Part shown: piece after piece, positions 35,641 to 59,363 of the stretch
Layout of the letters: the number at the start of each line of letters is the position of its first letter
Numbering within the stretch: the first letter of the stretch is position 1
Source: Candidatus Kaistella beijingensis
Lineage (GTDB): Bacteria; Bacteroidota; Bacteroidia; Flavobacteriales; Weeksellaceae
Length of the DNA stretch: 64,000 nt
Assembly (NCBI RefSeq): GCF_020084865.1
Contig: NZ_CP071953.1
Span: 1,178,001-1,242,000, forward strand
Reading direction: 5' to 3'
The notes under the pieces: model-generated
The model's database searches: none
What the model was told of the DNA's origin: nothing
Seen by the model: only the letters and a program-made list of their open reading frames with translations
Translations under genes and position numbers: made by a program

Positions 35641-35704
35641 TTTGGCTAAAGCCAATAATTATTTACCTTTTATTAAAACGGACTAAAGTGCGTTCCTATT
35701 GATT
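35641..35704 (-). repeat. Two-hairpin intercistronic repeat, copy A
   Basis: Read on the minus strand it begins ATCAATAGGAACG, passes a degraded hairpin (CGCACTTTAGTCCG) and ends with GGCTTTAGCCAAAACTT before the glucosaminidase start. It overlaps the last codons and stop of the upstream ACC-deaminase-like gene. Confidence 0.75.
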
Positions 35705-36600
35705 ATTAAATCTCTTTTCTTTTTCCTCAACATTTCGTTGGCGCCTTCAATTCCCTGTAATCCGCCGGTGTGAAATGCGAGAATTTTGCTGTTTTCAGGA
35801 AAATAACTTACTTCTATCAATTCAAAAACCTTCTTCATCATTTTTCCTGTGTAAATGGGTTCCAACTGAATTCCAAACTTTTCCGAGAAATCATTGATAA
35901 AACGGATATTTTCATCAGTTATTTTGCCGTAACTTCCGTCGTGTGCTTCGATGAGTTCAAAATTATTTCTTTCGGAAAGTTTTAAAACACTATCATTCAA
36001 TGAATGATCATCAACAACCTTGAAACCTAAAACCTTCTGATTTTCCTCTGCAAATTTGGATATTCCGGCAACGGTTCCGCCTGTTCCAACTGCGGTGCAA
36101 AGATAATCAAAACTTTTCGTATCGCTGTTCAGTAGGTGTTGAATGCCTTTTAAAGCGAATTCATTAGTTCCGCCTTCTGGAATAATTAATGCGTTTGGAA
36201 ATTCTATTTCTAAGTTTTTAGTTAAAATCTCTTTGTCACGAAAATCTTCTCTTGTAACAAATCTGAAATCCATTCCGTTTTCGTGAGCGAATTTTAGGGT
36301 TGGATTTTGCTGCCATTTACTTTGCAATTCCTCACCTCGAATTATCCCTAAAGTTTTTATCTCTAAATCTTTTCCTAAAGCTGAAACTGCGGAAATGTGG
36401 TTTGAGAAAGCGCCACCAAAAGTAATGATAGAAGGATTTGTTGGATCTTCGTCTAAGTAGTTGTTGATATTATATAAAAGCTTCCAATATTTGTTTCCTG
36501 AAATTTGGGGATGAATGAGATCTTCTCTTTTGATAAAAAGTTGAATGTTTCCCTTTAAAGGAATTTCGATTATTGGAATCTGAGTATCAGGAATTTTCAT
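35683..36600 (-). CDS. ACC deaminase / D-cysteine desulfhydrase-like PLP enzyme
   Basis: A fold-type II PLP enzyme. The cofactor lysine sits in ISGNKYWKLLY, the substrate-contact block is FGGAFSNHISAVSALGK, and a phosphate loop AVGTGGTVAGIS and C-terminal HTGGLQG are present. The length is 305. Sequence alone does not separate 1-aminocyclopropane-1-carboxylate deaminase from D-cysteine desulfhydrase; Bacteroidota members are usually annotated as the former without proof. The final residues (INRNAL) are encoded by an intergenic repeat that overlaps the gene end. Confidence 0.85.
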   Translation of the reverse strand: MKIPDTQIPIIEIPLKGNIQLFIKREDLIHPQISGNKYWKLLYNINNYLDEDPTNPSIITFGGAFSNHISAVSALGKDLEIKTLGIIRGEELQSKWQQNPTLKFAHENGMDFRFVTREDFRDKEILTKNLEIEFPNALIIPEGGTNEFALKGIQHLLNSDTKSFDYLCTAVGTGGTVAGISKFAEENQKVLGFKVVDDHSLNDSVLKLSERNNFELIEAHDGSYGKITDENIRFINDFSEKFGIQLEPIYTGKMMKKVFELIEVSYFPENSKILAFHTGGLQGIEGANEMLRKKKRDLIINRNAL

Positions 36601-36632
36601 TGTTACAAATTTATTCGAAAGAAAATCAAAAA

Positions 36633-36662
36633 CAAAAAAGGGTGCATATCAATACACCCTTT
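36633..36662 (-). terminator. Terminator of the T9SS-cargo gene
   Basis: AAAGGGTG and CACCCTTT arms around a 10-base loop, followed by T residues on the minus strand. Confidence 0.8.
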
Positions 36663-36686
36663 AATCTGCTTGAAGATAAAATCCTA

Positions 36687-37793
36687 CTACTTCTTAATAA
36701 CTTTCAGCGTTTTGACTCCTTGTTGAGTATCCACTTTCAAAATGTAAACATTCACCGGCAAATCGTGTAAGTTCAGCTTTGTTTTAGATTCATTAATATT
36801 TTTAAACTGTTTTACCAGCTGACCAGAAGCAGAGAATAATTGCACCGTATTTATTTTGCTTTCTGTCTCTACATTAATATAATCTGTTGTAGGATTTGGA
36901 AATACTGAAACATATTTTGCGGCAATGTTATCAACTGCCAAATTACCGTTAATCAAAGTAAAGTATTGGTAATTTCCAGCAATAATCTGTGTTGATGCTC
37001 CCGTAGCTGCGTCCACTTTTTGCACACCATTTGAGTTGGAGCACAAGTAGTTGCCATTAGAAGTCTGTATCGCTCCACGTAAACCCGTAACATTATTCCA
37101 TTTGTTTAAGATATTTCCTGTAGGCGAAATAACATACAGTCCGCTTGTGTTTCCGGAGGTTGCATTGCTACTAAATACGGCCAGTACATAATTTCCGGCC
37201 GAAGTTTTATTGATTTGTTCAATTCCTGACAAAATTCCTGCATCAACCAAATTTCCCGCCACTGTTCCGTCATAATTCATCATTTGAATTCCACTGCTTC
37301 CGAAAGAGGTAATATATGCTTTCCCAGCGCCATTATCAATCGCATCAAAAGGATCCGCAATTGTGTTGTAGGCACCAAGTGAATTGCCTGCAAAATCAAG
37401 CCTTCTCACAGAATTGGCAATTGCTCCATTTGTACTTCCCGCATTGGTTACCCAAACTTCGTTATTTACCACATTCAATCCGCGAATGTTACTTAAACCA
37501 ACCGTTGAAGGGATTGTGGACACATAAGTCCCATCGAGTGCGAAAGTGTAAATTCGATTATTAGTCTGATCCGAAATCCAAATTTTGTCCTGAACCTGCA
37601 CAATACCCTTTATGGTTCCTGCCGAAAGTGATGTTAAGTTGATAAACCCAGAATTAATCACCGATCCATCTGCAGCATTAAGTTGTGCTACCGTTTTGGC
37701 TGTAGAGTTCATTACCAAAATTGACTGTTGAGATTTGAGAATCACATTCCCAAAGAAAAATGCAAGGATTAAAAAAAGTAAATTTGTTTTCAT
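36687..37793 (-). CDS. Secreted beta-propeller protein with T9SS sorting tail
   Basis: Signal peptide (ends in the LKSQ region), six or seven propeller-like repeats over about 25-285 with the pattern VQDKIWISDQTNNRIYTFALDG, VVNNEVWVTNAG and AGKAYITSFG, resembling NHL/YncE-type propellers. It then has a type A C-terminal sorting domain: VFPNPTTDYINVE, FSASGQLVKQF and the end VDTQQGVKTLKVIKK. It is therefore predicted to cross the outer membrane through the type IX system. Ligand unknown. Followed by its own terminator. Confidence 0.88.
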   Translation of the reverse strand: MKTNLLFLILAFFFGNVILKSQQSILVMNSTAKTVAQLNAADGSVINSGFINLTSLSAGTIKGIVQVQDKIWISDQTNNRIYTFALDGTYVSTIPSTVGLSNIRGLNVVNNEVWVTNAGSTNGAIANSVRRLDFAGNSLGAYNTIADPFDAIDNGAGKAYITSFGSSGIQMMNYDGTVAGNLVDAGILSGIEQINKTSAGNYVLAVFSSNATSGNTSGLYVISPTGNILNKWNNVTGLRGAIQTSNGNYLCSNSNGVQKVDAATGASTQIIAGNYQYFTLINGNLAVDNIAAKYVSVFPNPTTDYINVETESKINTVQLFSASGQLVKQFKNINESKTKLNLHDLPVNVYILKVDTQQGVKTLKVIKK

Positions 37794-37877
37794 ATTTTAA
37801 ATATTTGTAGTGACTAAATTACAAACAAAATACAATTTGAAAACATTTTTATTTAAATTTCGAAGGAAATGAAGTAA

Positions 37878-38210
37878 TTAATTTGCTAAATATTTCCAAA
37901 AGCTCCAAATTTTGCGGGTTTCCAAATAATTCAAGTCGTCTTCCATTGCATAAGCTTCTCTTTCGAACGATATATATTTGTAGGCAAGAAAACTGTCTTT
38001 CAAACGAAAATACCAATAATAATATTCGATGACGTACCACAGGTAAAAGAAAATCACCAACAATTCTAGCTGTTGCCGAAGGTGAATTTTTTCATGATTA
38101 ATGAGAATCTTGTTGTTCTTGTCTTGCGGTTTTTTCAGCAAAATAAAGGGAAAAAGAGTAATGCCGTTAATTTTTGTATTTTTGAGTAAATTTTGGCACA
38201 CGATTATCAT
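37878..38210 (-). CDS. Conserved Bacteroidota protein with HEKIH motif, unknown function
   Basis: The ATG at 38210 (MIIVCQNLLKNTKINGITLF) is preferred over an upstream Met. The 110-residue protein has NHEKIHLRQQLELLVIFFYLWYVIEYYYW, where HEKIH resembles a zinc HExxH of M56/BlaR1-like or related membrane proteins, followed by a hydrophobic stretch and a conserved-looking SFEREAYAMEDDLNYL. This pattern is widespread in Bacteroidota proteins without known role. TATATTTG at 38222-38215 matches a -7 element only five bases before the ATG, so the message could be leaderless or the start may differ. Confidence 0.65.
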   Translation of the reverse strand: MIIVCQNLLKNTKINGITLFPFILLKKPQDKNNKILINHEKIHLRQQLELLVIFFYLWYVIEYYYWYFRLKDSFLAYKYISFEREAYAMEDDLNYLETRKIWSFWKYLAN

Positions 38211-38245
38211 GTGACAAATATAAAATTTTTGGGTATTTATTTTAA

Positions 38246-38967
<722 letters not shown>

Positions 38968-38985
38968 CACAAATTCTATATATCA

Positions 38986-39013
38986 GAAAAACCGCTTGAT
39001 GGCGGTTTTTTTG
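38986..39013 (+). terminator. Rho-independent terminator
   Basis: AAACCGC and GCGGTTT arms around TTGATG, followed by seven or more T residues. Confidence 0.85.
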
Positions 39014-39035
39014 TTGTTAAAAAAATCTTTAGTTC

Positions 39036-39066
39036 TTTTCGGCGGCGGCTTCGCCGCCGCCGAAAA
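39036..39066. repeat. 14-bp GC-rich perfect palindrome
   Basis: Arms TTTTCGGCGGCGGC and GCCGCCGCCGAAAA with a TTC loop. The ten GC pairs are unusual in this AT-rich genome. No T tract follows on either strand, so it is not a standard terminator; it sits 16 bases from the end of the pafA-like gene. Confidence 0.7.
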
Positions 39067-39081
39067 ACATTACTTCAAAAA

Positions 39082-40725
39082 TTATTTACCGATCACTTCT
39101 ACTATAGGATTCCCGATGTTTCCGCTTGGAAACTGAATTCTTAAAAGTGATGCAATTGTTGGTGAAATATCGGTCATATTGTATTCTTTGTTACTTTCAC
39201 CATTTTTAATTCCCCATCCCATAAAAATCAATGGAACACGCGAATCATACGAATTCCAAACGCTGTGAGTCGTTCCCTTCTTTGCATAAGGAGGAAGCAT
39301 GGAATCATGTGAAATTAATTGAATATCGCCGCTCCTCTGCCAATTGTAACCGTTGATAATTCTAGTTTTAATCGGTTCAGGAATGGGAGCTTGTCCTAAT
39401 TTTTTAAGATTTACTGCAAATAAAACTGATTGGTCTTTATTGAGTTCATCGACCAAATAATCAACAACATTGGTCATGTCTAGCTTGTTTTTTTCAACCA
39501 AGCTTTGATCCAAATAAATTTGATAATTATCAATTGAGGTCAACAGATTTTCAACTCCATATTTGAGTTTGTATTTTTCGTTCAAACTTTTTTCTGCGCC
39601 TTCTCCAAAAAATCCTGTCGCCATTTTGTGTTCCTGCATAAAACCTACGGCGTGAGCTCCACCGTGATCCGCAGAAAGGAAAACCGTATATTCATTTTTG
39701 CCAATATTTTTATCTAAATATTTAAAAAATTCTGCCAAATCTTGGTCTAATCTCAAATAAATATCTTGAACCTCGATAGAATTGGGTCCGAATTTGTGTC
39801 CTGCATAATCAGTTGAAGCAATATTGATGGCAAGAAAATCGGTAATATTGTCTTTTCCCAAACTTTCTCCTTCAATTGCAGCTTCAGCAACTTTCAAAGT
39901 CAAGGTATTTCCAAAAGGTGTGTAGCGGATGTTATCTTTTTTGGCCTGATAATCAGCCGCTAAATTATTGTATGGAAAAGTTGGTGTTTTTGCACTTCCT
40001 AAAAGTCCTTCCCACGGAGAATTATCTGGTGAACTTTCGGTATATTGGTTGAGTGGAAGCAAAGTATTCCAACCATTTGCGACTAATTTTTCAGGCAGAT
40101 TTTGGGCGTTGAAATTTTTCATCCATTGCGGAAGATCATTCATATAATACGAACTCGTTACAAAATTTCCTGAAGAGTCATCAAACCAATATGCTCCAGT
40201 CGGATTATGTCCTGCTGGAAGAATTGAGGCTCTGTCTTTCAAAGAAACACCCACAACTTTTCCCTGAAAATTGGTAGCCAATCTTAATTCATCTGTAATT
40301 GTTGTGGACCACAAATTTTTTGGTGAATGACTTCCTACTTTTACATTCTGGGTTCCAACCGGTTTTACAGTTTCATCGGTTGTACAATACACATTTTTCC
40401 CTGTGCCCTTGTCATACCAATCGTTTCCAGCGATCCCATGAATTGCAGGAACAGAACCTGTATAAATCGATGTATGTCCTAAAGCTGTCACTGTAGGAAC
40501 ATAATTGATATGAACATTATTCAAGGAAAAACCCTTGTTCAAAAGTCTTTTGAAGCCATCATTGCCATATTTGCTGTAATAACGATATAGATAATCCCAT
40601 CTCATTTGATCGACAACTAGACCTACAACTAATTTTGGACGATTCGGTTGGTTAATTTTTGCTTTTTGCGCATTGATTCCTATGGAGAATACAGCCAATG
40701 CAATAAGGCTCGCTTTTTTGAACAT
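39082..40725 (-). CDS. pafA: PafA-type alkaline phosphatase
   Basis: A secreted phosphomonoesterase of the alkaline phosphatase/NPP superfamily, described in Flavobacteria as able to work without phosphate repression. Signal peptide (ending GINAQ), catalytic Thr in VPTVTALGHTSIYTG (near residue 79), metal ligands in VVGLVVDQMRWD (near 35-45), SADHGGAHAVGF, and a NDWYDKGTGK motif after GIAG. It has 547 residues as expected. A -7 element TAATTTTG lies at 40765-40758 on the minus strand. The upstream thioredoxin-like gene ends 49 bases before it. Confidence 0.9.
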   Translation of the reverse strand: MFKKASLIALAVFSIGINAQKAKINQPNRPKLVVGLVVDQMRWDYLYRYYSKYGNDGFKRLLNKGFSLNNVHINYVPTVTALGHTSIYTGSVPAIHGIAGNDWYDKGTGKNVYCTTDETVKPVGTQNVKVGSHSPKNLWSTTITDELRLATNFQGKVVGVSLKDRASILPAGHNPTGAYWFDDSSGNFVTSSYYMNDLPQWMKNFNAQNLPEKLVANGWNTLLPLNQYTESSPDNSPWEGLLGSAKTPTFPYNNLAADYQAKKDNIRYTPFGNTLTLKVAEAAIEGESLGKDNITDFLAINIASTDYAGHKFGPNSIEVQDIYLRLDQDLAEFFKYLDKNIGKNEYTVFLSADHGGAHAVGFMQEHKMATGFFGEGAEKSLNEKYKLKYGVENLLTSIDNYQIYLDQSLVEKNKLDMTNVVDYLVDELNKDQSVLFAVNLKKLGQAPIPEPIKTRIINGYNWQRSGDIQLISHDSMLPPYAKKGTTHSVWNSYDSRVPLIFMGWGIKNGESNKEYNMTDISPTIASLLRIQFPSGNIGNPIVEVIGK

Positions 40726-40774
40726 AATTTTAAAATATTATTCTATATAAATTTTCACAAAATTAAGAAAACTA

Positions 40775-42046
40775 TTATTGAAATAGTTTCTTAAATTCTT
40801 CGGTGTTATAGCTCTTCAAGACCACCTCACCTTTACGGTTCAAAAGTAGATAACTTGGGTTAGAAAAAACCCCTAATTCCTCTTGATACTTTGCATTGTT
40901 GTTCTTGCTTTTAACATTCTGCCAATCTTGCATCTTATGATCTTCGACAAATTTTTTCCATTGTAGATCAGTTGTTGTGTTTAGAAATGCTAAAATCTTA
41001 ACATCTTTTGTAAACTGATTTTCTTTTAGGAATTTCTGAATTTCAGGCATTTTCTCTTGGCAATGTACACAATCAGGATCATAAAAAATAATCAAAGTGT
41101 AATCATGGTTTGGATAGATTGATTTCAAGTTCGTATCTATCCCGCTAAAATCGGTCATTGCAATATCCGAAATTACAGAACCCAATGGTAATTTTTCATT
41201 CTGTTTAAGTTTAACCAAGGTCGTTTGATAAAGTTTTTCATCTGCTTTCATACAATCAACTGAATTAAGATATTTGTTGAAAACATAATTGTAAGTCTCA
41301 TTCAGATTGTATTTATTTAAATAATCCAAATTCAAGAAAACCCATTTTAGGTAGTACAAATAATTCGGGCTTTTACAAGTTTGACCTTTCAGTAAAATAT
41401 CTACGTTTGACTTATAGTTTTCATTAGTTATAGGTAATACTTTAACATAATTGAAAAGCGATGAATAAATATTTGGAAGTAACTTAATACGTTTATCATT
41501 AAGATCTATCCCCTTAAAATATTGATTTCTGAAATTTTTTAGTTGTAACTCTTCTGTTGGGATGGTCAATTCTTTCAGTTCTAATTTTGCGTATAAAGCT
41601 GCGGCTGAAAGTGGAAAATTTTGGACGATTGCCTTCAAGTTTGTTTCTCTTTGTTCCCTGTTAATGACATTTTGGGAAAGCAATAATGCCTTATTCAAAG
41701 GGTCTGAAGTTGTCATTGATCGTAGAACACTATTATCAAGATTGAAGACAAGGTTTGAACCGTTTACCAAATCAATATTTGCAAAATTAAGTTTGTCATT
41801 TTTTTTGAAACTCAACCGATAAACCGCACCAATAATTTTCTTCTGCTGAATAAATGCAACCTCGTTTTTTCCTGAGACTAAAGCAGAGTCGACCGCTGTA
41901 GTTTTACCCAATGAACCGTTATAGTAACTTAAGTATAATTTTTCTTCATTTACATCTTTCAGATTTATTTTAACCTGAAAACCAATTTTTTGTGAAAACA
42001 ACAATTGACTTATAAACAGTAATGCAATAAAAACAGATCTTTTCAT
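40775..42046 (-). CDS. Exported thioredoxin-like (TlpA/AhpC-type) protein
   Basis: Signal peptide MKRSVFIALLFISQLLFSQ. The N-terminal part resembles the DUF4369-like beta domain (FQVKINLKDVNEEKLYLSYY), followed by a helical middle and a C-terminal thioredoxin fold (about 285-420) with active site DPDCVHCQEKMPEIQKF, that is C-V-H-C, and cis-Pro region GVFSNPSYLLLN. This layout is common in Bacteroidota periplasmic proteins that keep cytochrome or sorting-pathway thiols reduced. The specific partner is unknown. Followed on the minus strand by the pafA gene. Confidence 0.82.
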   Translation of the reverse strand: MKRSVFIALLFISQLLFSQKIGFQVKINLKDVNEEKLYLSYYNGSLGKTTAVDSALVSGKNEVAFIQQKKIIGAVYRLSFKKNDKLNFANIDLVNGSNLVFNLDNSVLRSMTTSDPLNKALLLSQNVINREQRETNLKAIVQNFPLSAAALYAKLELKELTIPTEELQLKNFRNQYFKGIDLNDKRIKLLPNIYSSLFNYVKVLPITNENYKSNVDILLKGQTCKSPNYLYYLKWVFLNLDYLNKYNLNETYNYVFNKYLNSVDCMKADEKLYQTTLVKLKQNEKLPLGSVISDIAMTDFSGIDTNLKSIYPNHDYTLIIFYDPDCVHCQEKMPEIQKFLKENQFTKDVKILAFLNTTTDLQWKKFVEDHKMQDWQNVKSKNNNAKYQEELGVFSNPSYLLLNRKGEVVLKSYNTEEFKKLFQ

Positions 42047-42104
42047 TTTTAATAATTATTTGCAAATTTAATTCTTTTTGTTTTTCAAACGCTGTTTGCA
42101 ACAA

Positions 42105-42132
42105 ATAAAAAAACGTACCAAATGGTACGTTT
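42105..42132 (-). terminator. Terminator of mdh
   Basis: AAACGTACCA and TGGTACGTTT arms with a two-base loop, followed on the minus strand by T residues. Confidence 0.85.
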
Positions 42133-42158
42133 CTTACAGTATTTGTTTAGAAAAAATC

Positions 42159-43085: not shown

Positions 43086-43129
43086 AATACTATTATTTTT
43101 ATATTTTTTTAATGTCTTTGTTAGAACTC

Positions 43130-43160: not shown

Positions 43161-43181
43161 TTTAGAATTATAAAATATTCC

Positions 43182-43733
43182 TCAAAATAATCCGAGTAAA
43201 AATTCAAAAGCTCTCATGGCTCCCCTTAAAACATCATCGTATTGATGTTCAGAAACATTTTCATCAAGCGACTCTTTGAAATTTTTCCATAAAACTCCGG
43301 TATCCTCACCATAACAATTAAAATAATGGAAAGAAATATTTTGAAATTCAGGACTTTTTGCGAGTTGTTTTGCAATGACATTTCCGCCCAAAGTGGAACC
43401 TTCCATCACATAAAGAAAACCGAATGCTTCGGCTTCATTTACTATTTCTGGCAGATTTTCAGGTTTGGATTTTTCTATATGTAAAGAAGACAAATCTTTT
43501 TCAATTAAAGGAAGTTTTCTCCTTTTTTCTAAATGTAAATTCTGCGCCGTTTCTTTTGAAAGTGTTTTGAAAACATCACTTTCAAAATTCAAAAGGAAAA
43601 GGTAATTGAAATGAATTAATTTTCGGTAATTATCTAAAGTATACGTTTTATCGAAGATTTTTGAGGATTGGAATTGCTGTTCCAACTTATCGTGAAGGGA
43701 TTTTGTTTTTTCTTTTAAGGTTTGTGAAATCAT
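43182..43733 (-). CDS. Biliverdin-producing heme oxygenase
   Basis: Opens heme to biliverdin, the chromophore of the phytochrome encoded just upstream. The 183-residue protein has the proximal-His segment KTKSLHDKLEQ (H14) and the distal-helix block GFLYVMEGSTLGGNVIAKQL, characteristic of bacterial BphO/HmuO-type enzymes. It is downstream of the phytochrome gene on the same strand, with one copy of the two-hairpin repeat occupying the gap. Confidence 0.88.
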   Translation of the reverse strand: MISQTLKEKTKSLHDKLEQQFQSSKIFDKTYTLDNYRKLIHFNYLFLLNFESDVFKTLSKETAQNLHLEKRRKLPLIEKDLSSLHIEKSKPENLPEIVNEAEAFGFLYVMEGSTLGGNVIAKQLAKSPEFQNISFHYFNCYGEDTGVLWKNFKESLDENVSEHQYDDVLRGAMRAFEFLLGLF

Positions 43734-43740: not shown

Positions 43741-43811
43741 TGTAAGTTTCGGCTAAAGCCTGATTCGGATTTTTAATATTAAAAAACGGGCTAAAGCCCG
43801 TCCCTATTGAT
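43741..43811 (-). repeat. Two-hairpin intercistronic repeat, copy B
   Basis: The best-preserved copy. On the minus strand it reads ATCAATAGGGACGGGC, then a perfect ACGGGCTTTAGCCCGT hairpin followed by T residues, a 25-base spacer and GGCTTTAGCCGAAACTT. It ends 7 bases before the heme oxygenase start codon. Confidence 0.8.
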
Positions 43812-43826: not shown

Positions 43827-46019
43827 TCAAGGTTTTTGAAAAGTAAGGATAAATGTAGTTCCCTCGTTCACTTTGCTTTCAAACGAGATATTTCCGCCAA
43901 GCCTTTTCATCAGTCGATATACGATTGAAAGTCCTACGCCATTTCCCTGGAATGACTTCGCATTTTCCATTCGGCTGAAGATTTTGAACATTTTTTCGTT
44001 ATTTTTATCCGCAATTCCGATTCCGTTGTCTTTGATTTTATAGATGACGCTTTCGCCTGAAACTTCACCATGAATTTCCACTTTCGGAGATTCACTTTTG
44101 GAGGAATATTTTATCGCATTTCCGATTACGTTTTGTAAAACCTGTTTCAACATGGTTTTATCGGCCAAAACATTTGGACAATCACCTTTAATGACTTCGG
44201 TACTTTCAGCTTGCAGAGTGAATTTAGCATCGTACATAATTTTATCAATCAACGAAAGTGTTTCCATGTTTTCTAGATGGATTTCAGAGGTTTTCGCACG
44301 ACTTAAATCAAGAACGTTGCGCATCATCACCTCCATGCTGTTGATTTCTTCAATAATTTTCTTGACTTTTTTCTGAACGTCTGGATTTTCTTTTTGGGTT
44401 CTTTCGAGCAACTGTGCGTTCAGCTTCATAACGGTTAAAGGCGTTCCCAAATCGTGAGAAATGGTATGTGAAAAACTGTCGAGTTCTTCATTCAATTTTT
44501 TCAATTGGTCATTCAGTTCCACGATTTTTGAGCTTAGATTTATCGAAGTTTCCAAAATCACGGGAATCAGCTTTTCTACGGCGATGATGTTTTTATTTTG
44601 CCAATGCTTAGATTTTCCGTTGATGTCTTCCGAAAATATCTCGAAAGATTTTCTTGGCGAAATCATGATTTTTTCTGTACCGTAATGATTGACGGTTTCG
44701 GGTTTTTTCTCTTCATAACCTGCCCAATTGATGTGTTCGGTGTATTCTTTTCGGAACCATATCAACATTTGTGTTTTCAAACTGTCGAGATTGGCAATAA
44801 AAACTCCTGCAGCATTTTGGTCTACATCAAACTGCTCTTTAAAATCCTTCAAAAATGAATTACTGTAAAACATTTTTTCCGGTTGGCTTTGCATCCATTC
44901 ACCAATTTTGCGAATTGCATTTTCGGCCGGAACCGTTCCAAAAGTCTTCAACCCATCCCCCATGATAATCGCCAAACCATCAGATTCCACCATGTTTTTT
45001 AAAACTTCAATATTCTCAAAAAGTGAATCTTTTAAAGTGTTATGTTTTAGAAACTGCTCCCTTAAAAAACGGGTTTTATTGTTGAACTCATTAATATCAT
45101 CAATTTTCTGTTGAGATTTGAATGACATATAGGAGTTTGCTGCCAAAGCGGTAAAAACTTCTGCCCGAATTCTGTTGGCTAAATCGATATGTTTGGCTTC
45201 AATATTTTGACACGTTACCAAACCCCAAAGTTGATTGTCGATAATAATCGAAGTGCTGAAACTTGAAGCGACACCCGTATTCTTCAAGTATTGCCCATGA
45301 ATTGGCGACATTGCCCGAACTGAAGAATAAGTTAAATCAATTTTTTCGTCGGTTTTGCTAAAAATCGGGACCATTTCAGAATACACATCGCTGAAAATAC
45401 GTTCGCGTTTTTTTAAATAAAGCGCTCTGGCTTGTCTTGGAATATCGCTCTCCGGATAATGAAGATTCATGTAGCTTTCCAGACCGGGATTGATGTGCTC
45501 TGCAATTACTTTTCCGGTGCCGTCTTCCAAAAAACGATACACCATAATTCTGTCGTAACCCACCACATCGTAAATCAACCGCGCCAGATTTTTCCATAAT
45601 TCTTCTGAACTTAAAAGGCTGCTTGGATTGGCATATTTATTTGAAAGGTAAACTTTCTGGGAATTATTGTCGATAAATCGTTCAAATTCCAGGAAAATAT
45701 TTCCACTGAATTTATAGATTAAAAAATGATGCGGAATGCCGTTGACAATAATTTTATCAACAAAATAATCATTTTCTTTCTGGGTAAATTTTTCGAGGTT
45801 CTGATAGAGTTCAGATTCGGCAATTTGTGAAAAACTTTGAGGTAAACTTTCGATTTCCGCACCAAAAATATCACCTTCTATTTGAAAAAGCGTTGCAATG
45901 TTCTGGCTGTAAAATTTTATGGTCTTAGTCTCGGCATCAAGTCCAATCAGGTAACCATAGCTCTGAATGTGTCCCGGAATGTGAATTTCTTCCTCGTGAC
46001 AGTCTAAAAATTCCTTCAT
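43827..46019 (-). CDS. Bacteriophytochrome histidine kinase
   Basis: A red/far-red light sensor kinase with biliverdin. The 730-residue protein begins with the chromophore-anchoring Cys (C7, in FLDCHEEEIHIPGHIQSYG), followed by PAS-like, GAF (with HYPESDIPRQARALY, equivalent to the PASDIP motif), PHY (tongue motif ISPRKSFEIFSE) and a kinase module with H in SHTISHDLGTPLTVMK, N box NVIGNAIKYS, G1 DNGIGIAD and G2 GNGVGLSIVYR. The kinase type is classical HisKA, not HWE. The heme oxygenase gene is directly downstream, so chromophore and apoprotein are made together. No response regulator gene lies adjacent. Confidence 0.93.
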   Translation of the reverse strand: MKEFLDCHEEEIHIPGHIQSYGYLIGLDAETKTIKFYSQNIATLFQIEGDIFGAEIESLPQSFSQIAESELYQNLEKFTQKENDYFVDKIIVNGIPHHFLIYKFSGNIFLEFERFIDNNSQKVYLSNKYANPSSLLSSEELWKNLARLIYDVVGYDRIMVYRFLEDGTGKVIAEHINPGLESYMNLHYPESDIPRQARALYLKKRERIFSDVYSEMVPIFSKTDEKIDLTYSSVRAMSPIHGQYLKNTGVASSFSTSIIIDNQLWGLVTCQNIEAKHIDLANRIRAEVFTALAANSYMSFKSQQKIDDINEFNNKTRFLREQFLKHNTLKDSLFENIEVLKNMVESDGLAIIMGDGLKTFGTVPAENAIRKIGEWMQSQPEKMFYSNSFLKDFKEQFDVDQNAAGVFIANLDSLKTQMLIWFRKEYTEHINWAGYEEKKPETVNHYGTEKIMISPRKSFEIFSEDINGKSKHWQNKNIIAVEKLIPVILETSINLSSKIVELNDQLKKLNEELDSFSHTISHDLGTPLTVMKLNAQLLERTQKENPDVQKKVKKIIEEINSMEVMMRNVLDLSRAKTSEIHLENMETLSLIDKIMYDAKFTLQAESTEVIKGDCPNVLADKTMLKQVLQNVIGNAIKYSSKSESPKVEIHGEVSGESVIYKIKDNGIGIADKNNEKMFKIFSRMENAKSFQGNGVGLSIVYRLMKRLGGNISFESKVNEGTTFILTFQKP

Positions 46020-51848: not shown

Positions 51849-51894
51849 CTTTTTATTATTAAATTTTAACAAATCTATGACTTTTTTTCGAGAA

Positions 51895-51970: not shown

Positions 51971-51991
51971 GTTATATAAAAAATTAAAAAT

Positions 51992-52483: not shown

Positions 52484-52517
52484 TTCCTTCTCAAGAAACA
52501 ATTAATCAATATATATA

Positions 52518-54518
52518 ATGAAAAGTTTAAAATTATTTGGACTTTCTGTCATTGCTGCCATTACAGTTTTGACAGGATGCAAACCAAAAGGAACCGAAAA
52601 CGCCGTAAGTGGCGACGCCGCTGAAAAAGTGTACGTTGCTCCAGGAAAATACGACGAGTTTTATAACTTCGTGAGTGGCGGTTTCAACGGACAGGTAAAC
52701 GTTTACGGATTACCGAGCGGAAGATTGCTAAAAGTTCTTCCAGTTTTCGCCCAAAACCCTGAAAACGGTTATGGATACAGCGAAGAAACAAAACCGATGC
52801 TTCAGACTTCCCACGGATTTATTCCTTGGGATGACCAACACCACCTTTCACTTTCGCAAACCAACGGTGAAGTGGACGGAAGATGGTTGTTTGCGAATGC
52901 GAACAATACACCGCGAGTGGCTCGTCTTGATTTGAAAACATTCAAAACAGTAGAAATTTTAGAACTTCCGAATTCTGCGGGAAATCACTCCTCACCTTTC
53001 TTGACTGAAAATACAGAGTATGTTGTTGCAGGAACACGTTTCGCAGTTCCAACGGATGATAAAAACGGTGACGTTCCTATCAATACCATGAAAGAAAATT
53101 TCAAAGGCGTTTTATCTTTCATCGGAATTAATAAAGACAGCGGAGATATGGATTTATCTTTCCAGATTGAAGCTCCGGGAATTAACTTTGACCTTTCTCA
53201 CGCAGGTAAAGGAAAATCTACTGATTGGTTCTTCTTCTCTTGCTACAATTCTGAGAAAGCAAACACGCTTCTTGAAGTGAACGCTTCCCAAAATGATAAA
53301 GACTTTATCATGGCGGTGAACTGGAAAAAAGCAGCCGAATTGGTGAAAGCAGGCAAAGGTAGAAAAGTTCAAACTGAATACGCTCACAATAAATTCGACG
53401 AGAAAACACACACCGCAACTTCAACCATGAAAAAAGAAGTTACTGTACTTTCTGTGGAAGATATGAAGGAAGCAATGTATTTAATTCCTTGTCCAAAATC
53501 TCCTCACGGATGTGACGTTGACCCAACTGGTGAATACATCATTGGTTCAGGTAAATTGGCAGCTTTAATCCCTGTTTTCAGTTTTGATAAAATTCAGAAA
53601 GCAATTGCTGACAAAGCGTTTAGTGGAGATTATGACGGTGTAACTGTTATTAAATATGAAGCCGCTCTTCACGGTGAGGTTCAAAAACCGGGATTAGGTC
53701 CGCTTCACACCGAGTTTGACGGAAAAGGAAATGCCTACACTTCTATGTTCGTTTCTTCTGAAGTGGTGAAATGGAACATCAAAGATTTGAAAGTTCTTGA
53801 CAGACAGCCTACTTTCTACTCCGTTGGTCACTTGATGATTCCAGGTGGAGACAGCAAAAAACCTTTCGGAAAATATTTGGTAGCGTATAATAAAATTACC
53901 AAAGACCGATATTTACCAACAGGTCCTGAATTGGCGCAATCTGCACAATTGTACGACATTAGTGGTGACAAAATGAAGCTTTTGCTTGACTTCCCTACTT
54001 TTGGTGAGCCGCATTATGCACAAGCTTGTCCGGGAGATTTAATTTCTAAAAATCAGGTGAAATTCTTCAAGATTGCTGAAAATCAGCACCCTTATGCAAC
54101 TAAAGGTGAAGCGGAAAGCAAAGTGGTAAGAGAAGGAAACAAAGTTCATGTTTATATGACCTCCATCCGTTCTCACTTCGCTCCCGACAATATTGAAGGA
54201 ATCAGAGTCGGTGACGAAGTCTACTTCCACGTTACAAATCTTGAGCAAGATTGGGACGTTCCACACGGATTCGCAATCAAAGGCGCACAAAATGCCGAAC
54301 TCTTAATTATGCCTGGAGAAACTTGCACCCTACTTTGGAAACCTCTAAAAGCAGGAATGTATCCGATGTATTGTACCGACTTCTGTTCTGCACTACACCA
54401 AGAAATGCAAGGTTACGTAAGAGTATCACCTGCAGGAAGCAGCACTCCTTTAATTTATTCACTGAATAATAAGAAAGACAATGCACAAGGTCCTGTAAAA
54501 CAAGGTGAAACCAAATAA
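52518..54518 (+). CDS. nosZ: Nitrous-oxide reductase, Sec-type clade II
   Basis: Reduces N2O to N2 at the copper CuZ cluster, fed through CuA. The signal MKSLKLFGLSVIAAITVLTGC is a lipoprotein type without a twin-arginine motif, a hallmark of clade II. A seven-bladed propeller domain includes the CuZ-His region DDQHHLSLSQTNGEVDGRW, NFDLSHAGKG and CPKSPHGCDVDP, and the C-terminal cupredoxin domain carries the CuA set CTDFCSALHQEM. The length is 666. A terminator follows, so nosZ and the cytochrome form one unit separate from the maturation genes. Confidence 0.96.
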   Translation: MKSLKLFGLSVIAAITVLTGCKPKGTENAVSGDAAEKVYVAPGKYDEFYNFVSGGFNGQVNVYGLPSGRLLKVLPVFAQNPENGYGYSEETKPMLQTSHGFIPWDDQHHLSLSQTNGEVDGRWLFANANNTPRVARLDLKTFKTVEILELPNSAGNHSSPFLTENTEYVVAGTRFAVPTDDKNGDVPINTMKENFKGVLSFIGINKDSGDMDLSFQIEAPGINFDLSHAGKGKSTDWFFFSCYNSEKANTLLEVNASQNDKDFIMAVNWKKAAELVKAGKGRKVQTEYAHNKFDEKTHTATSTMKKEVTVLSVEDMKEAMYLIPCPKSPHGCDVDPTGEYIIGSGKLAALIPVFSFDKIQKAIADKAFSGDYDGVTVIKYEAALHGEVQKPGLGPLHTEFDGKGNAYTSMFVSSEVVKWNIKDLKVLDRQPTFYSVGHLMIPGGDSKKPFGKYLVAYNKITKDRYLPTGPELAQSAQLYDISGDKMKLLLDFPTFGEPHYAQACPGDLISKNQVKFFKIAENQHPYATKGEAESKVVREGNKVHVYMTSIRSHFAPDNIEGIRVGDEVYFHVTNLEQDWDVPHGFAIKGAQNAELLIMPGETCTLLWKPLKAGMYPMYCTDFCSALHQEMQGYVRVSPAGSSTPLIYSLNNKKDNAQGPVKQGETK

Positions 54519-54534
54519 ACAGAATAAAAATAAA

Positions 54535-54558
54535 GGGCGGTTTTCACTGCCCTTTTTT
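54535..54558 (+). terminator. Terminator after nosZ
   Basis: GGGCGG and CTGCCC arms (one G-T pair) around TTTTCA, then six T residues. Confidence 0.85.
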
Positions 54559-54563
54559 ACTTC

Positions 54564-54599
54564 TGTAACATAGGTTACAAAACACACTTTTAAAAGTGT
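54564..54599 (+). promoter_or_regulatory. Two palindromes upstream of the nos maturation genes
   Basis: TGTAACATAGGTTACA (54564-54579) has 6-bp arms and a 4-base spacer, of the CRP/FNR-superfamily form TGTAA-N6-TTACA. ACACTTTTAAAAGTGT (54584-54599) is a perfect 16-bp palindrome without spacer. Only a weak -7-like TAAAATTA (54599-54606) is present, 7 bases before the ATG, so promoter placement is uncertain. Confidence 0.5.
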
Positions 54600-54613
54600 A
54601 AAATTAAAAAACA

Positions 54614-55198
54614 ATGAAAAATTATTCATTATCAAAACTGTCAAGAATACTGCTTATCGTTTGCGGAATAAGTTTGATAGTAAGCATTTTTGTTCCATTG
54701 TGGGCAATTTATCTAGAAGCTCCGCAATATCCGGAAGGATTAGGAATGTTTCTATGGTCCAACAAAATCACGGGTGATTACGAAATCATCAACGGCTTGA
54801 ATCACTATATCGGAATGAAAACCATTCATCAGGAAGATTTTTGGGAATTTAAAGTTCTTCCTTATGCCCTCGGATTTTTTGCGATAATATGTTTGGTTGC
54901 AGCATTTTTAAACAAGAAAATTTGGCTGTACCTTACAACTGTTTTATTTCTGATTTTCGGAGTTGCGTTTATGGTAGATTTTTGGATGTGGGAGTACGAT
55001 TATGGTCACAATCTCGATCCAAATGCAGCGATTGTAGTTCCTGGAATGAGTTATCAGCCGCCATTGATTGGCTTTAAACAGCTTCTCAATTTTGGTGCAT
55101 ATTCTTATCCCGATATTGGCGGAATCATCATGTTTGCAGTTGCAGCGATTTTGATTATCTTAGCTTTTATTGAATTCAGAAAAGCGAAAACTGCCTGA
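54614..55198 (+). CDS. Polytopic membrane protein of the nos cluster (NosB position)
   Basis: The 194-residue protein has about four to five membrane helices (about 13-33, 83-100, 106-122, 165-185). Between helices it carries NGLNHYIGMKTI and the strikingly Pro/Gly-rich VVPGMSYQPPLIGFKQLLNFGAYSYPD loop. It follows nosZ directly, the place where clade II clusters have the membrane protein often called NosB. The equivalence is by position and topology only; the biochemical role is not known. First gene of the second nos unit, followed by nosL after 42 bases. Confidence 0.75.
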   Translation: MKNYSLSKLSRILLIVCGISLIVSIFVPLWAIYLEAPQYPEGLGMFLWSNKITGDYEIINGLNHYIGMKTIHQEDFWEFKVLPYALGFFAIICLVAAFLNKKIWLYLTTVLFLIFGVAFMVDFWMWEYDYGHNLDPNAAIVVPGMSYQPPLIGFKQLLNFGAYSYPDIGGIIMFAVAAILIILAFIEFRKAKTA

Positions 55199-55240
55199 AA
55201 TTTTATGAAATTAATCCCTTAAAAAATAATTCAAAGTATT

Positions 55241-55651
55241 ATGGAATTGAAAAAAAGTTTGATCATTGCAGGTTCAGTTTTGGCATTTATGTCTTGTCAA
55301 CAATCAGGTCCGAAAGATTTTCTTCTTGGTAAAGACCAATGCGACAACTGCAAAATGACCATTACCGAACTGAAATATGCGGCAGAATTAATCACCCAAA
55401 AAGGAAAGGTTTACAAATTCGACGACATCAGCTGTATGACGATGTACGAAAGCTCCAATCCCGACAAAGCAACCAACGCCAAAAAATATGTAATTGATTT
55501 CCCATCCGAAAAATTTTTGGAAACCACGAAAGCGACTTTCATTAAAGGTGGAAACATCAAATCACCAATGGGTGGAAATACACAGGCTTATCAAAACAAA
55601 TCGGCAGCAGAAAAAGCAGCAGCAACTTTGGGCGCAAGTTTAACCAAATAA
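55241..55651 (+). CDS. nosL: NosL copper chaperone, lipoprotein
   Basis: Delivers Cu(I) for NosZ maturation in the periplasm. Lipoprotein signal with Cys at residue 20 (LAFMSCQQSG), then the metal motif CDNCKMTI and KVYKFDDISCMTMY. The length of 136 is normal for NosL. It is four bases from the nosD frame, so the two are tightly coupled. Confidence 0.92.
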   Translation: MELKKSLIIAGSVLAFMSCQQSGPKDFLLGKDQCDNCKMTITELKYAAELITQKGKVYKFDDISCMTMYESSNPDKATNAKKYVIDFPSEKFLETTKATFIKGGNIKSPMGGNTQAYQNKSAAEKAAATLGASLTK

Positions 55652-55658
55652 GTTATTG

Positions 55659-56885
55659 ATGTTCAGAGTATTGTTTCTGTTTCTCCCCATTTTTATTTTT
55701 TCAAACATTTTAAAAGTCGGGAAGAACGAAAAATTTAAAACCATACAAAGCGCTGTCGCCTCCTCACAAAGTGGCGACAGTATTTTAGTGGAAAGTGGCC
55801 ATTACAAGGAAGGCAACATCAACATTACCAAACCTTTGACAATTATTGGAATTGGAAGACCTGTCTTGGATGGCGAAATGAAATATGAAATTTTGTCTTT
55901 CCGCGCGAATCACATTGTTTTGAAGGGGTTTAAAATCATCAATTCAGGCGAAGACGAGGTGGAAAATATTGGTGCAATTCGTCTTTACAACAGCCAGTAC
56001 ACCACCATTGAAGACAATATTTTCGAGAATAATTATTTTGGAATTTACATTCAGCGTGGTTATAAATGTTTGATTAAGAACAACAAAATCACTTCCACTC
56101 GTGCAAAATCTCAAGAAGGGAGCGGCGATGGAATTCATGCATGGGTAAGTCAGGAAATTTGGATTAAAAATAATTACATTTCAGGTCACAAAGACGGAAT
56201 TTACCTTGAAAAGGTCATCAATTCCTACATTTACCACAACAATTCGGTAAAAAATTTAAGGTATGGTTTGCATTTTATGTTTGCGAATGACAATGTTTAT
56301 GTGAACAACACTTTCGACAACAACAATGCTGGAGTTGCCGTGATGTACAGCAATAATGTGGGAATGGTAGGAAACCGATTCGTCAACAATTGGGGCGATG
56401 GAAGTTATGGGTTGTTATTAAAAGACATTTCTTTCAGTAAAATCAAACACAATATTTTTGAGAGTAACACGGTCGCCATTTTCCTTGACGGAGCCACAAA
56501 AATCGATTTCTATAAAAATGATTTCGAAAACAACGGATGGGGAATGAAAATCAATGCGAATTGTATGGAAAACCGCGTCATCAACAATAATTTCATCAAC
56601 AACACCTTCGATGTAAGCACCAACGGAACAATGGTGATGAACGATTTCAAGAAAAATTATTGGGACAAATATGAAGGTTACGACCTCAACAAAGACGGAA
56701 CAGGAGACGTGAAATTTCATCCTTTAAGTCTATATTCTTATCTCGTGGAAAAAAATCCGTCGGTAATGCTCTTATTTAAAACATTTATTGTGGATTTGCT
56801 TGACAAAACGGAAAAGATAATTCCAAGTCTCACTCCCGAAAGTTTTGTGGATGAGGAGCCACTGATGAAGAAAATTAAAATTTAA
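55659..56885 (+). CDS. nosD: NosD copper-cluster maturation protein
   Basis: A periplasmic right-handed beta-helix protein that works with NosFY in CuZ assembly. The ATG at 55659 is taken (an in-frame TTG directly precedes it). A signal peptide (MFRVLFLFLPIFIFSN) is followed by about ten beta-helix coils with NosD/CASH-type repeats such as GIYIQRGYKCLIKNNKI, GIYLEKVINSYIYHNN and YGLLLKDISFSKIKHNIF. The length of 408 is normal. The gap to nosF (245 bases) is unusually large because it contains an S23 element remnant. Confidence 0.92.
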   Translation: MFRVLFLFLPIFIFSNILKVGKNEKFKTIQSAVASSQSGDSILVESGHYKEGNINITKPLTIIGIGRPVLDGEMKYEILSFRANHIVLKGFKIINSGEDEVENIGAIRLYNSQYTTIEDNIFENNYFGIYIQRGYKCLIKNNKITSTRAKSQEGSGDGIHAWVSQEIWIKNNYISGHKDGIYLEKVINSYIYHNNSVKNLRYGLHFMFANDNVYVNNTFDNNNAGVAVMYSNNVGMVGNRFVNNWGDGSYGLLLKDISFSKIKHNIFESNTVAIFLDGATKIDFYKNDFENNGWGMKINANCMENRVINNNFINNTFDVSTNGTMVMNDFKKNYWDKYEGYDLNKDGTGDVKFHPLSLYSYLVEKNPSVMLLFKTFIVDLLDKTEKIIPSLTPESFVDEEPLMKKIKI

Positions 56886-57123
56886 GGCGGGAAGATGGAA
56901 GCGGGAAGAAAAAAAGTAAAAATTTAGAGATATGAGTTTTAAATCTGAGAAATTAATAATTTGGCAAAAGTCGATGGAATTTGGCGAAGAAATTCTTTCA
57001 AGAAAACTATGACAAGTGTTTTAATTTAATGAACCAAATAATTGCATTTAGAAATTAATAATGAAAATTAATGGGCGAGTTTTAGAAGTTCTTTTGTAAA
57101 CTTCCATCTCCCATCTTCCAGCC
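56886..57123 (+). mobile_element. Remnant S23/four-helix-bundle element with imperfect terminal inverted repeats
   Basis: The gap between nosD and nosF is bounded by GGCGGGAAGATGGAAGC... (56886-56908) and its approximate reverse complement (57101-57123), 19 of 23 positions matching. Inside, an ATG at 56932 opens a 26-codon frame MSFKSEKLIIWQKSMEFGEE that is the standard start of S23/four-helix-bundle proteins (about 120 residues when intact) and stops at 57012; the rest of the gene is absent. Such proteins are known from 23S rRNA intervening sequences, which also have complementary ends. Mobility of this copy is inference. Confidence 0.6.
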
Positions 57124-57130
57124 AAAAGAT

Positions 57131-57844
57131 ATGATATTAGTAAAAAATCTCACCAAGAAATTCGGCAAATTCACAGCTATTGATGACGTGAATCTGTCTT
57201 TCCAAAACGGTCATTCCATCGCGTTGATCGGTCCGAACGGTTGCGGAAAAACCACTTTAATAAAATGTATTTTAGGATTGAATGTGGTGGAAAACGGCGA
57301 TATTTTCGTAGACGAAAAAAGCGTTAAAGACGATTATCTTTACCGAAAAAACATCGGTTATATGCCTCAAATCGGGCGATACCCTGAAAACATGACGATT
57401 GGTCACACCATCCAAATGATTAAGGACACCCGAAAATTATCGGAAGAACATTTAGACACCGAACTTCTTGAAGATTTCGAGTTGGAAAAAATGTATGACA
57501 AAAAAATGGGTAATCTTTCTGGGGGAACCACGCAAAAAGTGAGTGCCGTTTTGGCGTTTATGTTTGACCCGAAAATCATCATTCTCGACGAACCCACTGC
57601 AGGACTTGATCCACTTGCTTCGGAAATTTTGAAAAAGAAAATCATCAAAGAAAAAAACAAAGGTAAACTTATCATCATCACCTCGCATTTATTAAGCGAA
57701 CTCGATGACATTGTGAGCGAAATCATCTTCATGAACGAAGGGAAAATCCTTGTCCATCAATCGGTTGAAGATTTGTTATACCAAACCAATTCGGAAAAAA
57801 TTTCAGAATCGATTGTGACTATTTTAAAGGAAATGAAAAAGTAA
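57131..57844 (+). CDS. nosF: NosF ABC-transporter ATPase
   Basis: ATPase that, with NosY and NosD, supports CuZ cluster assembly. Walker A GPNGCGKTTL (near 34-43), Q loop YMPQIGRYPE, signature NLSGGTTQKVSAVLAF (LSGGT in place of LSGGQ), Walker B IIILDEPTAGLDP and H loop ITSHLLSE. The length of 237 is normal. It begins 7 bases after the right inverted repeat of the S23 element. Confidence 0.93.
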   Translation: MILVKNLTKKFGKFTAIDDVNLSFQNGHSIALIGPNGCGKTTLIKCILGLNVVENGDIFVDEKSVKDDYLYRKNIGYMPQIGRYPENMTIGHTIQMIKDTRKLSEEHLDTELLEDFELEKMYDKKMGNLSGGTTQKVSAVLAFMFDPKIIILDEPTAGLDPLASEILKKKIIKEKNKGKLIIITSHLLSELDDIVSEIIFMNEGKILVHQSVEDLLYQTNSEKISESIVTILKEMKK

Positions 57845-57856
57845 AATACTTATTTC

Positions 57857-57923
57857 ATCAATAGGAGCGGGCTTTAGCCCGCTGGTTAAAAAAATAAATT
57901 CCAATTGGCATCAGCCAAAATAT
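57857..57923 (+). repeat. Two-hairpin intercistronic repeat, copy C
   Basis: ATCAATAGGAGCGGGC, a perfect AGCGGGCTTTAGCCCGCT hairpin, a 24-base spacer, then GGCATCAGCCAAAAT ending at the nosY start codon. It occupies nearly the whole nosF-nosY gap. Confidence 0.8.
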
Positions 57924-58697
57924 ATGATAATGAACAAAATCGCACGTTTTATATTTTTCGATATTTTAAAGAACAAAATCATTATTTTCTACACCATTTT
58001 GCTGTTCATTCTTTCTTGGTCAGTTCTTGGTTTAGAAAGTAATTATACCAAAGCTACTTTGAGTTTGCTGAATGTGGTTTTGTTGGTTGTTCCTTTAGTA
58101 AGTATTATATTTTCAACAATTTATGTTTACAATAGCAGTCAGTTTGTGGAGTTGCTTTTAAGTCAACCCGTTCCGAGAACCAAGGTTTGGTTTAATATTT
58201 TCCTTGGACTTTCGAGCGCATTGGTATTGGCGTTTATCATTGGTTGCGGAGTTCCGATTTTGCTTTATTCTTCGATTGAAACAGGATTTTCGTTAATGAT
58301 TGTAGGAATTTTGCTCTCTACTATTTTCACCTCTTTTGCGATGCTTTCTGCCATTTCAAGCCGAGACAAAGCCAAAGGAATTGGGATTTCCATTTTCATT
58401 TGGGTCTTTTTTGCCATTATTTATGATGGAATTCTTTTGGTTTTGATGTTCCAATTTGCGGATTATCCTATCGAGGGCATTATGGCGACTTTGGCAGGAT
58501 TAAATCCTGTAGGTTTGGCAAGAATTTTCGTATTGCTGCAACTTAATATTTCCGCGATGCTTGGAGCTTCGGGAGCGATTTTTCAACAGGTTTTCGGTTC
58601 AGGAGGCGGAATGGGAATCTCGATTGTCGTGATGTTGATTTGGGCGATTGTTCCTTTTGTTCTGTCTTTGATAAAATTCAATAAAAAAGATTTATAA
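57924..58697 (+). CDS. nosY: NosY ABC-transporter permease
   Basis: Membrane partner of NosF. It has 257 residues with six hydrophobic helices and the ABC-2 pattern; TIYVYNSSQFVELLLSQPVPRTKVWF and ISSRDKAKGIGISIFIWVFFAIIYDG are the conserved cytoplasmic and core blocks of NosY. A second in-frame ATG six bases later is equally possible as start. The start codon abuts the intercistronic repeat. It ends the nos cluster and is convergent with the lipoprotein gene. Confidence 0.92.
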   Translation: MIMNKIARFIFFDILKNKIIIFYTILLFILSWSVLGLESNYTKATLSLLNVVLLVVPLVSIIFSTIYVYNSSQFVELLLSQPVPRTKVWFNIFLGLSSALVLAFIIGCGVPILLYSSIETGFSLMIVGILLSTIFTSFAMLSAISSRDKAKGIGISIFIWVFFAIIYDGILLVLMFQFADYPIEGIMATLAGLNPVGLARIFVLLQLNISAMLGASGAIFQQVFGSGGGMGISIVVMLIWAIVPFVLSLIKFNKKDL

Positions 58698-58712
58698 TCA
58701 AAGTTTCTTATC

Positions 58713-59288
58713 CTATTTCTTCACCTCCACAAACTGATAAACCATCTGATTTTTAGGGTTAAAAATAATCGTGCTCGAATTCGGGAAACGTTTCACCTTA
58801 TAATATTCGATGTTTTTATCGTTTTTAATATCATCCAAAAAACTCGTGTCAATCGTATTGGCGGGAAGGAACTTTTCAAAGAAAGTCAATTTTTCAACGA
58901 TTGTGGAACCGTCGATTTTTTCAAATTCTTTTTTGGATTTTGCTTCGTCGGAAGTGGGTTGTTCCACCAAAGTTTTTAGCAGCAAATCTTTGTGGGTTGC
59001 TTTATATTTAAAAACATAAAATGGAGTTCCATTCGGGAATGCGACTCTTTTCCCGACTTCATTTTCAATGAGCAAACTATTTTGATTGGGGAAAATGCTG
59101 TCGAACTTAACAGATTTTGCGTTGACATACTTATTGAGTTGTTCGCTGACGGTTTCCTGAATCATTTCATTCGCCTTCTGTTGCGCTTTTTCTTTTGCAG
59201 AATCTACACTTTGAGTGAATATCTCTTCTATTTTATTACAAGAAATCAAGGTTGTTGCTGCAATGATTGCTAAAAGTGTTTTTTTCAT
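58713..59288 (-). CDS. Lipoprotein of unknown function
   Basis: Lipoprotein signal MKKTLLAIIAATTLISC with Cys at residue 17, then a charged helix (VDSAKEKAQQKANEMIQETVSEQLNKYV), and a C-terminal alpha/beta part with TPFYVFKYKATHKDLLLKTL, ILFN-type strand TIIFNPKNQMVYQFVEV. No family recognised. The length is 191. It lies downstream of the ABC exporter gene on the minus strand, with one copy of the two-hairpin repeat between them. Confidence 0.7.
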   Translation of the reverse strand: MKKTLLAIIAATTLISCNKIEEIFTQSVDSAKEKAQQKANEMIQETVSEQLNKYVNAKSVKFDSIFPNQNSLLIENEVGKRVAFPNGTPFYVFKYKATHKDLLLKTLVEQPTSDEAKSKKEFEKIDGSTIVEKLTFFEKFLPANTIDTSFLDDIKNDKNIEYYKVKRFPNSSTIIFNPKNQMVYQFVEVKK

Positions 59289-59293
59289 TTATT

Positions 59294-59363
59294 TTAAGTT
59301 TTCGGCTCAAAGCCACTGGACTCTAAAATTTAATAAACTGATAAAGTCCGTTCCTGTCGATTT
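59294..59363 (-). repeat. Two-hairpin intercistronic repeat, copy D
   Basis: A more degraded copy, minus strand: ATCGACAGGAACGGAC, degraded first hairpin, and GGCTTTGAGCCGAAAACTT five bases before the lipoprotein start codon. Confidence 0.7.

Follow-up and report, generated by a model that had tools for sequence, protein, structure and literature searches.

A two-hairpin, REP-like repeat with a strand bias in Candidatus Kaistella beijingensis, and a Y1 transposase as its candidate partner

Four copies of a two-hairpin repeat

The window analysed here is a stretch of 64,000 nucleotides (nt) from Candidatus Kaistella beijingensis (contig NZ_CP071953.1, positions 1,178,001 to 1,242,000), in which an earlier note had described four copies of a short intergenic repeat composed of two hairpins. 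We found all four (Table 1), and each of them indeed lies between two genes of the same strand and points in the direction of these genes. Our analysis of the whole genome and of its relatives indicates that the repeat is better read as a mobile element resembling repetitive extragenic palindromes (REPs) than as a conserved regulatory RNA. The consensus quoted in the note, including a perfect CGGGCTTTAGCCCG hairpin, describes copies B and C; copy A has CGCACTTTAGTCCG in its place, and the diverged copy D reads ATCGACAGGAACGGAC, with the first hairpin broken. For the second hairpin, A and B share GGCTTTAGCC, C has GGCATCAGCC and D has GGCTTTGAGCC. The copies end 14, 7, 0 and 5 nt (A to D) before the called downstream start, i.e. 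within the 0-14 bases noted before; this spacing is not a property of the family, being shared by only 10 of the 26 copies in the genome that are co-directional with their two neighbours ("sense"), whose distances range from an overlap to 241 nt. In copy A the upstream reading frame enters the element and has its stop codon within the first hairpin, while the permease gene downstream of copy C more likely starts at 57930, because its relatives begin with ATGAAC. An Rfam scan of the window matched only rRNA and tRNA.

Table 1. Copies of the repeat in the window and other features mentioned in the text
Feature	Coordinates	Strand	Context
Copy A	35641..35704	-	between PALP-domain enzyme gene (35683-36600) and glucosaminidase/LysM gene (34577-35626)
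Copy B	43741..43811	-	between phytochrome histidine kinase gene (43827-46019) and haem oxygenase gene (43182-43733)
Copy C	57857..57923	+	between ABC ATPase gene (57131-57844) and ABC permease gene (57924 or 57930-58697)
Copy D, diverged	59294..59363	-	between ABC transporter gene (59422-61230) and gene without Pfam match (58713-59288)
Y1 gene with facing repeat units	genome 2606677-2607123	-	
Y1 gene L032	genome 1583443-1583790	-	motif YVLNQEEHH
Y1 gene L030	genome 527045-527389	-	
rRNA operon, complete	window 18258-23256	-	with two tRNA genes; one of two in the genome

Architecture and family size

The repeat unit is about 70 nt long and consists, from 5' to 3', of a ATCAATAGG tag, a strong hairpin RRCGGGC-TTTA-GCCCGYY, an AT-rich spacer, a weaker hairpin TTGGC-TTTA-GCCAA and an AAAAYTTA tail. 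Comparison of 66 copies places the onset of the conserved block at (A)TCAATAGG and its end just past AAAAYTTA. Among 178 distinct units, chosen by pattern, all but one (177) have the hairpin cores 22-29 nt apart and both loops on one strand; the tag is AATAG in 165, AGTAG in 8, GATAG in 3 and AACAG in 2 of them, a distribution that the selecting pattern itself restricts.

A 24-nt pattern with up to three mismatches matched the host genome (a single contig of 2,816,191 bases) 29 times, as opposed to zero matches for the reversed pattern; three matches (A, B and C) fall in the window, vs none in 100 shuffles, copy D being more diverged and hence outside the pattern. A covariance model built from 28 of the 29 matches (L029 was omitted) and copy D yielded 41 matches in this genome at E<=1. 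We classified 38 of these, after dropping two that overlap a listed copy on the opposite strand and a weak one (E 0.17), and all 38 fall between called genes, the calls being those of a codon-usage script that missed one transposase frame (see below). The copy numbers given here are lower bounds, since between 123 and 150 candidates per genome were scored with the model.

In the paired columns of the aligned copies 95.1% of cells are paired. Cells changed on both sides number 21, vs 7.2 in shuffles (0 of 500 shuffles as high); counted as base pairs with a double change, the total of four is not above that of shuffles (3.0; 129/500). The first helix, in which 97.5% of cells are paired, has double changes at four of its seven pairs, and the second (91.7%) has none.

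Orientation with respect to genes and the replication fork

In the host genome, 26 copies in same-strand gaps are sense and three antisense (p=1.5e-5), and the remaining ones occupy five convergent and four divergent gaps (n=38). Two of the four divergent copies flank the transposase gene that the caller missed. Five congeners (57 of 74 matches at E<=0.01) have 38 sense, 3 antisense, 11 convergent and 5 divergent copies; the three antisense copies and three of the sense copies adjoin a transposase gene, and the independent insertions are fewer than these counts, because several copies are orthologous (G006/G023, G003/G024). In five further genomes, for which 55 of 308 matches were picked from the best-scoring rows, there are 32 sense, 8 antisense, 14 convergent and 1 divergent copies (p=1.8e-4). 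One of these genomes, Halpernia, has three sense and three antisense copies, and another (G051), labelled Chryseobacterium, may be a congener, as it is 98.9% identical to the host genome over 2184 nt at one locus. The sense bias is strong within the genus, and outside it these counts only suggest one. The fixed orientation claimed in the earlier note survives as a strong co-directional bias in the host genome and the five congeners, and the antisense, convergent and divergent copies show that it is not absolute.

We placed the replication origin at about 1.65 Mb, judging by the strands on which the two rRNA operons (one of which lies in the window) and the genes are found, and by a weak skew; dnaA, at 442, is far from this position. 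Given this origin, the orientation of 28 of the 38 copies agrees with fork movement (p=0.005); two copies are near the origin, and shifting it leaves 26 with the fork (p=0.03). In those same-strand gaps where gene and fork directions conflict, seven copies follow the gene and two the fork. The 20 best-scoring copies in the host genome comprise 16 sense and no antisense ones, and the other 18 comprise 10 and 3, respectively.

Subtracting the element from the gaps of the 26 sense copies leaves a median of 67 nt, vs 249 nt expected by gap length and 84 nt expected when every junction is counted once. A preference for short junctions as targets was rejected and no junction target is claimed, because the 32 sense copies in the five further genomes have a median gap of about 316 nt.

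Orthologous junctions

Orthologous loci in relatives were located through the neighbouring proteins. The junction that holds copy B measures 93 nt here; among 18 congener loci, 16 have -2 to +8 nt and two are not simply readable. At the site of copy C, 21 of the 29 congener loci have an ATPase frame that overlaps the permease start (ATGA); the junction is wider in the other eight, six of which hold an apparent decayed relic, as judged by eye. For copy A the gap is 13-15 nt in 7 of 28 readable congeners, and the element or a relic is found in six (G050, G003, G015, G024, G049, G005). No copy was found near the homologous permease of copy D in 29 congener loci, in which gene order was unchecked, and for this reason we do not score the locus as empty. 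The junction before a PLP-enzyme gene (L117) spans 72 nt with the element in the host genome, and 4-32 nt in 12 and 71-238 nt in 4 of 16 relatives. Some orthologous copies retain both hairpins despite a diverged spacer, such copies having been found with the hairpin model itself. The same PLP-enzyme junction in one relative (G016, L364) carries a different short repeat, GATAGGATGTAATCCTATC-like, which has several copies.

A Y1 transposase gene between facing units

The host genome has three Y1 (PF01797) genes at E<=0.001 (Table 1). One of them sits between two facing repeat units, and its stop codon lies inside the second hairpin of one of these units. The encoded protein retains the HUH motif and the tyrosine, and scores 88.4 bits with PF01797 and 56.8 bits with NF033573 (IS200/IS605 family; cut-off 55); a search of PDB sequences gave no match at E<=0.001. 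In an alignment of 13 Y1 proteins the two H, W-Q, Y and Q are all invariant, and the motif around the tyrosine has the consensus YIKNQExHH (YIKNQEEYH in the host protein). Next to this cassette lies a reading frame (2057-2788 of L031) that we take to resemble a fragment of another transposase.

For a survey of gene flanks we used the best 80 of 166 transposase relatives in named genomes, 78 of which had enough sequence on both sides. In these loci, many of which are orthologous, and with a loop rule fixed after inspection of an earlier result, a palindrome with a TTYA/TRAA loop occurs within 250 nt upstream of the gene in 66 and downstream in 65 of 78 cases, across Bacteroidota, vs 8 of 1180 control windows taken from a distance of 1 kb or more. 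At least two palindromes on both sides are present in 20 of the 78 loci. The frequencies are 33/37 upstream and 31/37 downstream for Weeksellaceae-labelled genomes, and 33/41 and 34/41 for the others; under a looser rule either flank of 69/78 loci, vs 47/1173 windows, has a palindrome. The sequence TTGGCTTTAGCCAA, in either orientation, is found in the flanks of 29/37 Weeksellaceae-labelled and 14/41 other loci, and the type of the first hairpin differs between groups.

Other Y1 genes have different surroundings. L032 is flanked by another palindrome pair, GCACTCCGTAGGAGTGC and GCGTTCCTACGGAACGC, perhaps a second REP-like family, and for L030 no palindrome was found in the 250 nt to either side of the match. 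Several distant Y1 genes of relatives (L177-L200) have other, one-sided palindromes (e.g. CATCGGGCTTTGCCCGATG), perhaps ordinary IS200-like ends, and at L071 two occurrences of the long palindrome TATTGCCACTGACTAAAGTCAGTGGCAATA adjoin a Y1 gene.

Distribution among genomes

The model search detected copies in 19 of 40 genomes: the host itself, 17 of its 24 congeners and, among 15 genomes of other genera, a single one, the other 14 having none. When it was applied to 41 of the 80 genomes bearing a transposase relative, all 41 had matches, with 12-99 copies in the 32 Weeksellaceae-labelled genomes and 2-9 in the nine others. Transposase relatives of at least 55% identity are encoded in the host, G020, G024, G003, G011 and G030, with an internal stop in the last two. 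G006 has a lone unit between the same two neighbour genes that flank the gene cassette in G003 and G024, which loss of the gene would explain.

Origin of the repeat and of its strand bias

The element is repeated and sharp-ended, several relatives lack it at orthologous junctions, inserted copies decay, and a facing pair encloses a Y1 gene. We consider it probable that it is a mobile, REP-like DNA element, about 70 nt long and without a gene of its own, and that the Y1 transposase moves it through single-strand insertion. Copies of either orientation, and copies in convergent gaps, which the earlier note had named as a sign of an ordinary transposable repeat, do exist, and the repeat is therefore regarded as transposable; the strand bias, whose absence the note had also expected in that case, nevertheless persists.

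Enzymes of the IS200/IS605 and TnpA-REP kinds are described as acting on single-stranded DNA, reading one strand and favouring the lagging-strand template (PMC6006769, PMC8266576). By analogy, the transposase would bind single-stranded hairpins, the tag and first hairpin corresponding to a left end or REP and the second hairpin to a right end; it would cut the unit strand and paste the same strand into exposed single-stranded DNA. At a gene co-directional with the fork, the lagging-strand template is also the coding strand freed by transcription, and insertion into it would yield both the sense bias and the fork bias. The inserted copies would then drift, most probably without a function for the host.

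Several observations weigh against this scenario. No transposition was observed, and insertion ends and target duplications cannot be fixed by comparison, as the relatives are too diverged. At the site of copy A, 15 of the 28 congeners have a longer junction without a recognisable element. When the missed transposase frame is counted, one more host copy is antisense (26:4), and when G051 is left out, the other four further genomes, from other genera, show a weak bias (18:8, p=0.08). Five congeners (G006, G023, G012, G002, G017) have 9-23 copies and no transposase relative above 39% identity, because of which we infer, rather than observe, the partnership with the enzyme.

The main rival to insertion into an exposed strand is selection, which we regard as a serious though less probable explanation: the mobile element would insert both ways, and antisense copies would be lost, either because they put the strong hairpin near the downstream start or because they disturb expression; in sense copies it is the weak hairpin, with the AT-rich tail, that comes to lie at the start. 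Start sites in Bacteroidota prefer AT-rich, open sequence. The gene bias exceeds the fork bias, as seen in the conflict gaps, and copies in divergent gaps are scarce in all three sets (4/38 in the host, 5/57 in congeners, 1/55 in further genomes). On the other hand, 28 of the 38 host copies go with the fork, and the top-scoring copies, presumably the youngest, include no antisense one (16:0), which argues against slow purging, but not against immediate loss.

It is improbable that the repeat is a classical GTAG REP and owes its movement to a TnpA-REP enzyme of class 2. The first hairpin does resemble the published Haemophilus influenzae REP GTAGGGTGGGCTTTAGCCCACC (PMC2817692), and one congener copy reads ATAGGGGTGGGCTTTAGCCCACC, but all three Y1 genes have Q after the tyrosine and none has the NP motif, and the protein encoded between the facing units reaches only 35.7 bits with the NCBIfam REP model (cut-off 80). 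Slightly less probable still is a selected cis-regulatory RNA between genes of an operon. The earlier note had proposed an attenuator or terminator, or protection of the 3' end of the upstream message, and the sense bias, the double changes in the first stem, the T runs after some copies and the orthologues that keep both hairpins could be cited in favour. However, a T run (at least 4 T in the 6 nt past the first stem) follows only 11 of 29 aligned copies, copies are present in convergent and divergent gaps and associated with a transposase gene, and orthologous junctions of most readable relatives are empty or decayed, so neither role is borne out. A miniature inverted-repeat element of a DDE transposon is hardly credible: the facing copies around the gene resemble long inverted repeats, but within one unit the two ends do not form an inverted repeat, no flanking duplication was evident in the 66-copy comparison, and the enclosed enzyme is Y1.

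Returning to the mobile REP-like element, we may speculate, with considerable doubt, that it belongs to a separate REP system found throughout Bacteroidota, in which a Y...Q transposase similar to subclass 1.2 would coevolve with a mini-element of two hairpins, the first variable and the second (TTGGCTTTAGCCAA) recurrent; insertion would favour the coding strand of transcribed junctions, with single-stranded DNA exposed by transcription as the target. Apart from this speculation, the results tie a recurring palindrome pattern of Bacteroidota to one enzyme clade, and they provide a natural system in which to ask whether the target strand of single-strand transposition is exposed by transcription as well as by replication. 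As a caution, such hairpins in Bacteroidota operons should not be taken for regulators by default.

Comparison with known systems

The note had not recognized the repeat as belonging to a described family, and literature searches, confined to openly accessible articles, listed no description of it; as a kind, however, it resembles REP/RAYT and PATE elements. With the REP/RAYT systems (GTAG superfamily, REPtrons, BIMEs) it shares an intergenic hairpin, a 5' tag (ATAG, sometimes GTAG), many dispersed copies and a Y1 gene between facing copies, and its TTTA loop is like that reported for a Marinomonas REP (PMC8266576). It differs in having two hairpins per unit in direct order, the second without a tag, in the usual ATAG form of the tag, in the strong sense bias and in the Y...Q type of the enzyme. 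BIMEs and REPINs are made of two inverse REPs, whereas here both TTTA loops of a unit are on one strand, and it is whole units that are inverted around the transposase gene. The enzyme, with YIKNQ instead of N(P) and a score under the NCBIfam REP cut-off, is not a RAYT (class-2 TnpA-REP); its Y1 fold, Y...Q motif and score above the family cut-off place it with IS200/IS605 transposases.

PATEs of Haloquadratum are similar in their near-terminal palindromes, lack of terminal inverted repeats, non-coding length and kinship to IS605-type ends, but are described as derived from TnpB-bearing transposons (PMC3119063), whereas the gene described here is enclosed by two complete units in inverted order, not by one left end and one right end. 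TnpA-Y1 subclass 1.2, as surveyed in PMC6006769, shares the YIKNQxxHH-type motif (Y---Q--HH; the host protein has YIKNQEEYH), the WQ motif and the presence in Bacteroidota. That survey gives DH[IV]H as the HUH motif and "no" for REPs, whereas the clade described here mostly has DHCH, as does the host protein, and palindromes beside most genes; our results point to REP-like elements as partners of a transposase group for which the survey lists none. Among Bacteroidetes, CGTC-tagged repeats (PMC3733652) and, in Flavobacterium, many palindromes (PMC12306157) have been reported, as has a RayT gene close to one for a multidrug pump in Chryseobacterium, in an article whose text nowhere contains "palindrom" (PMC11194056). 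REPs and their Y1 genes are already well described, and the two-hairpin repeat is a new variant of the REP/RAYT kind.

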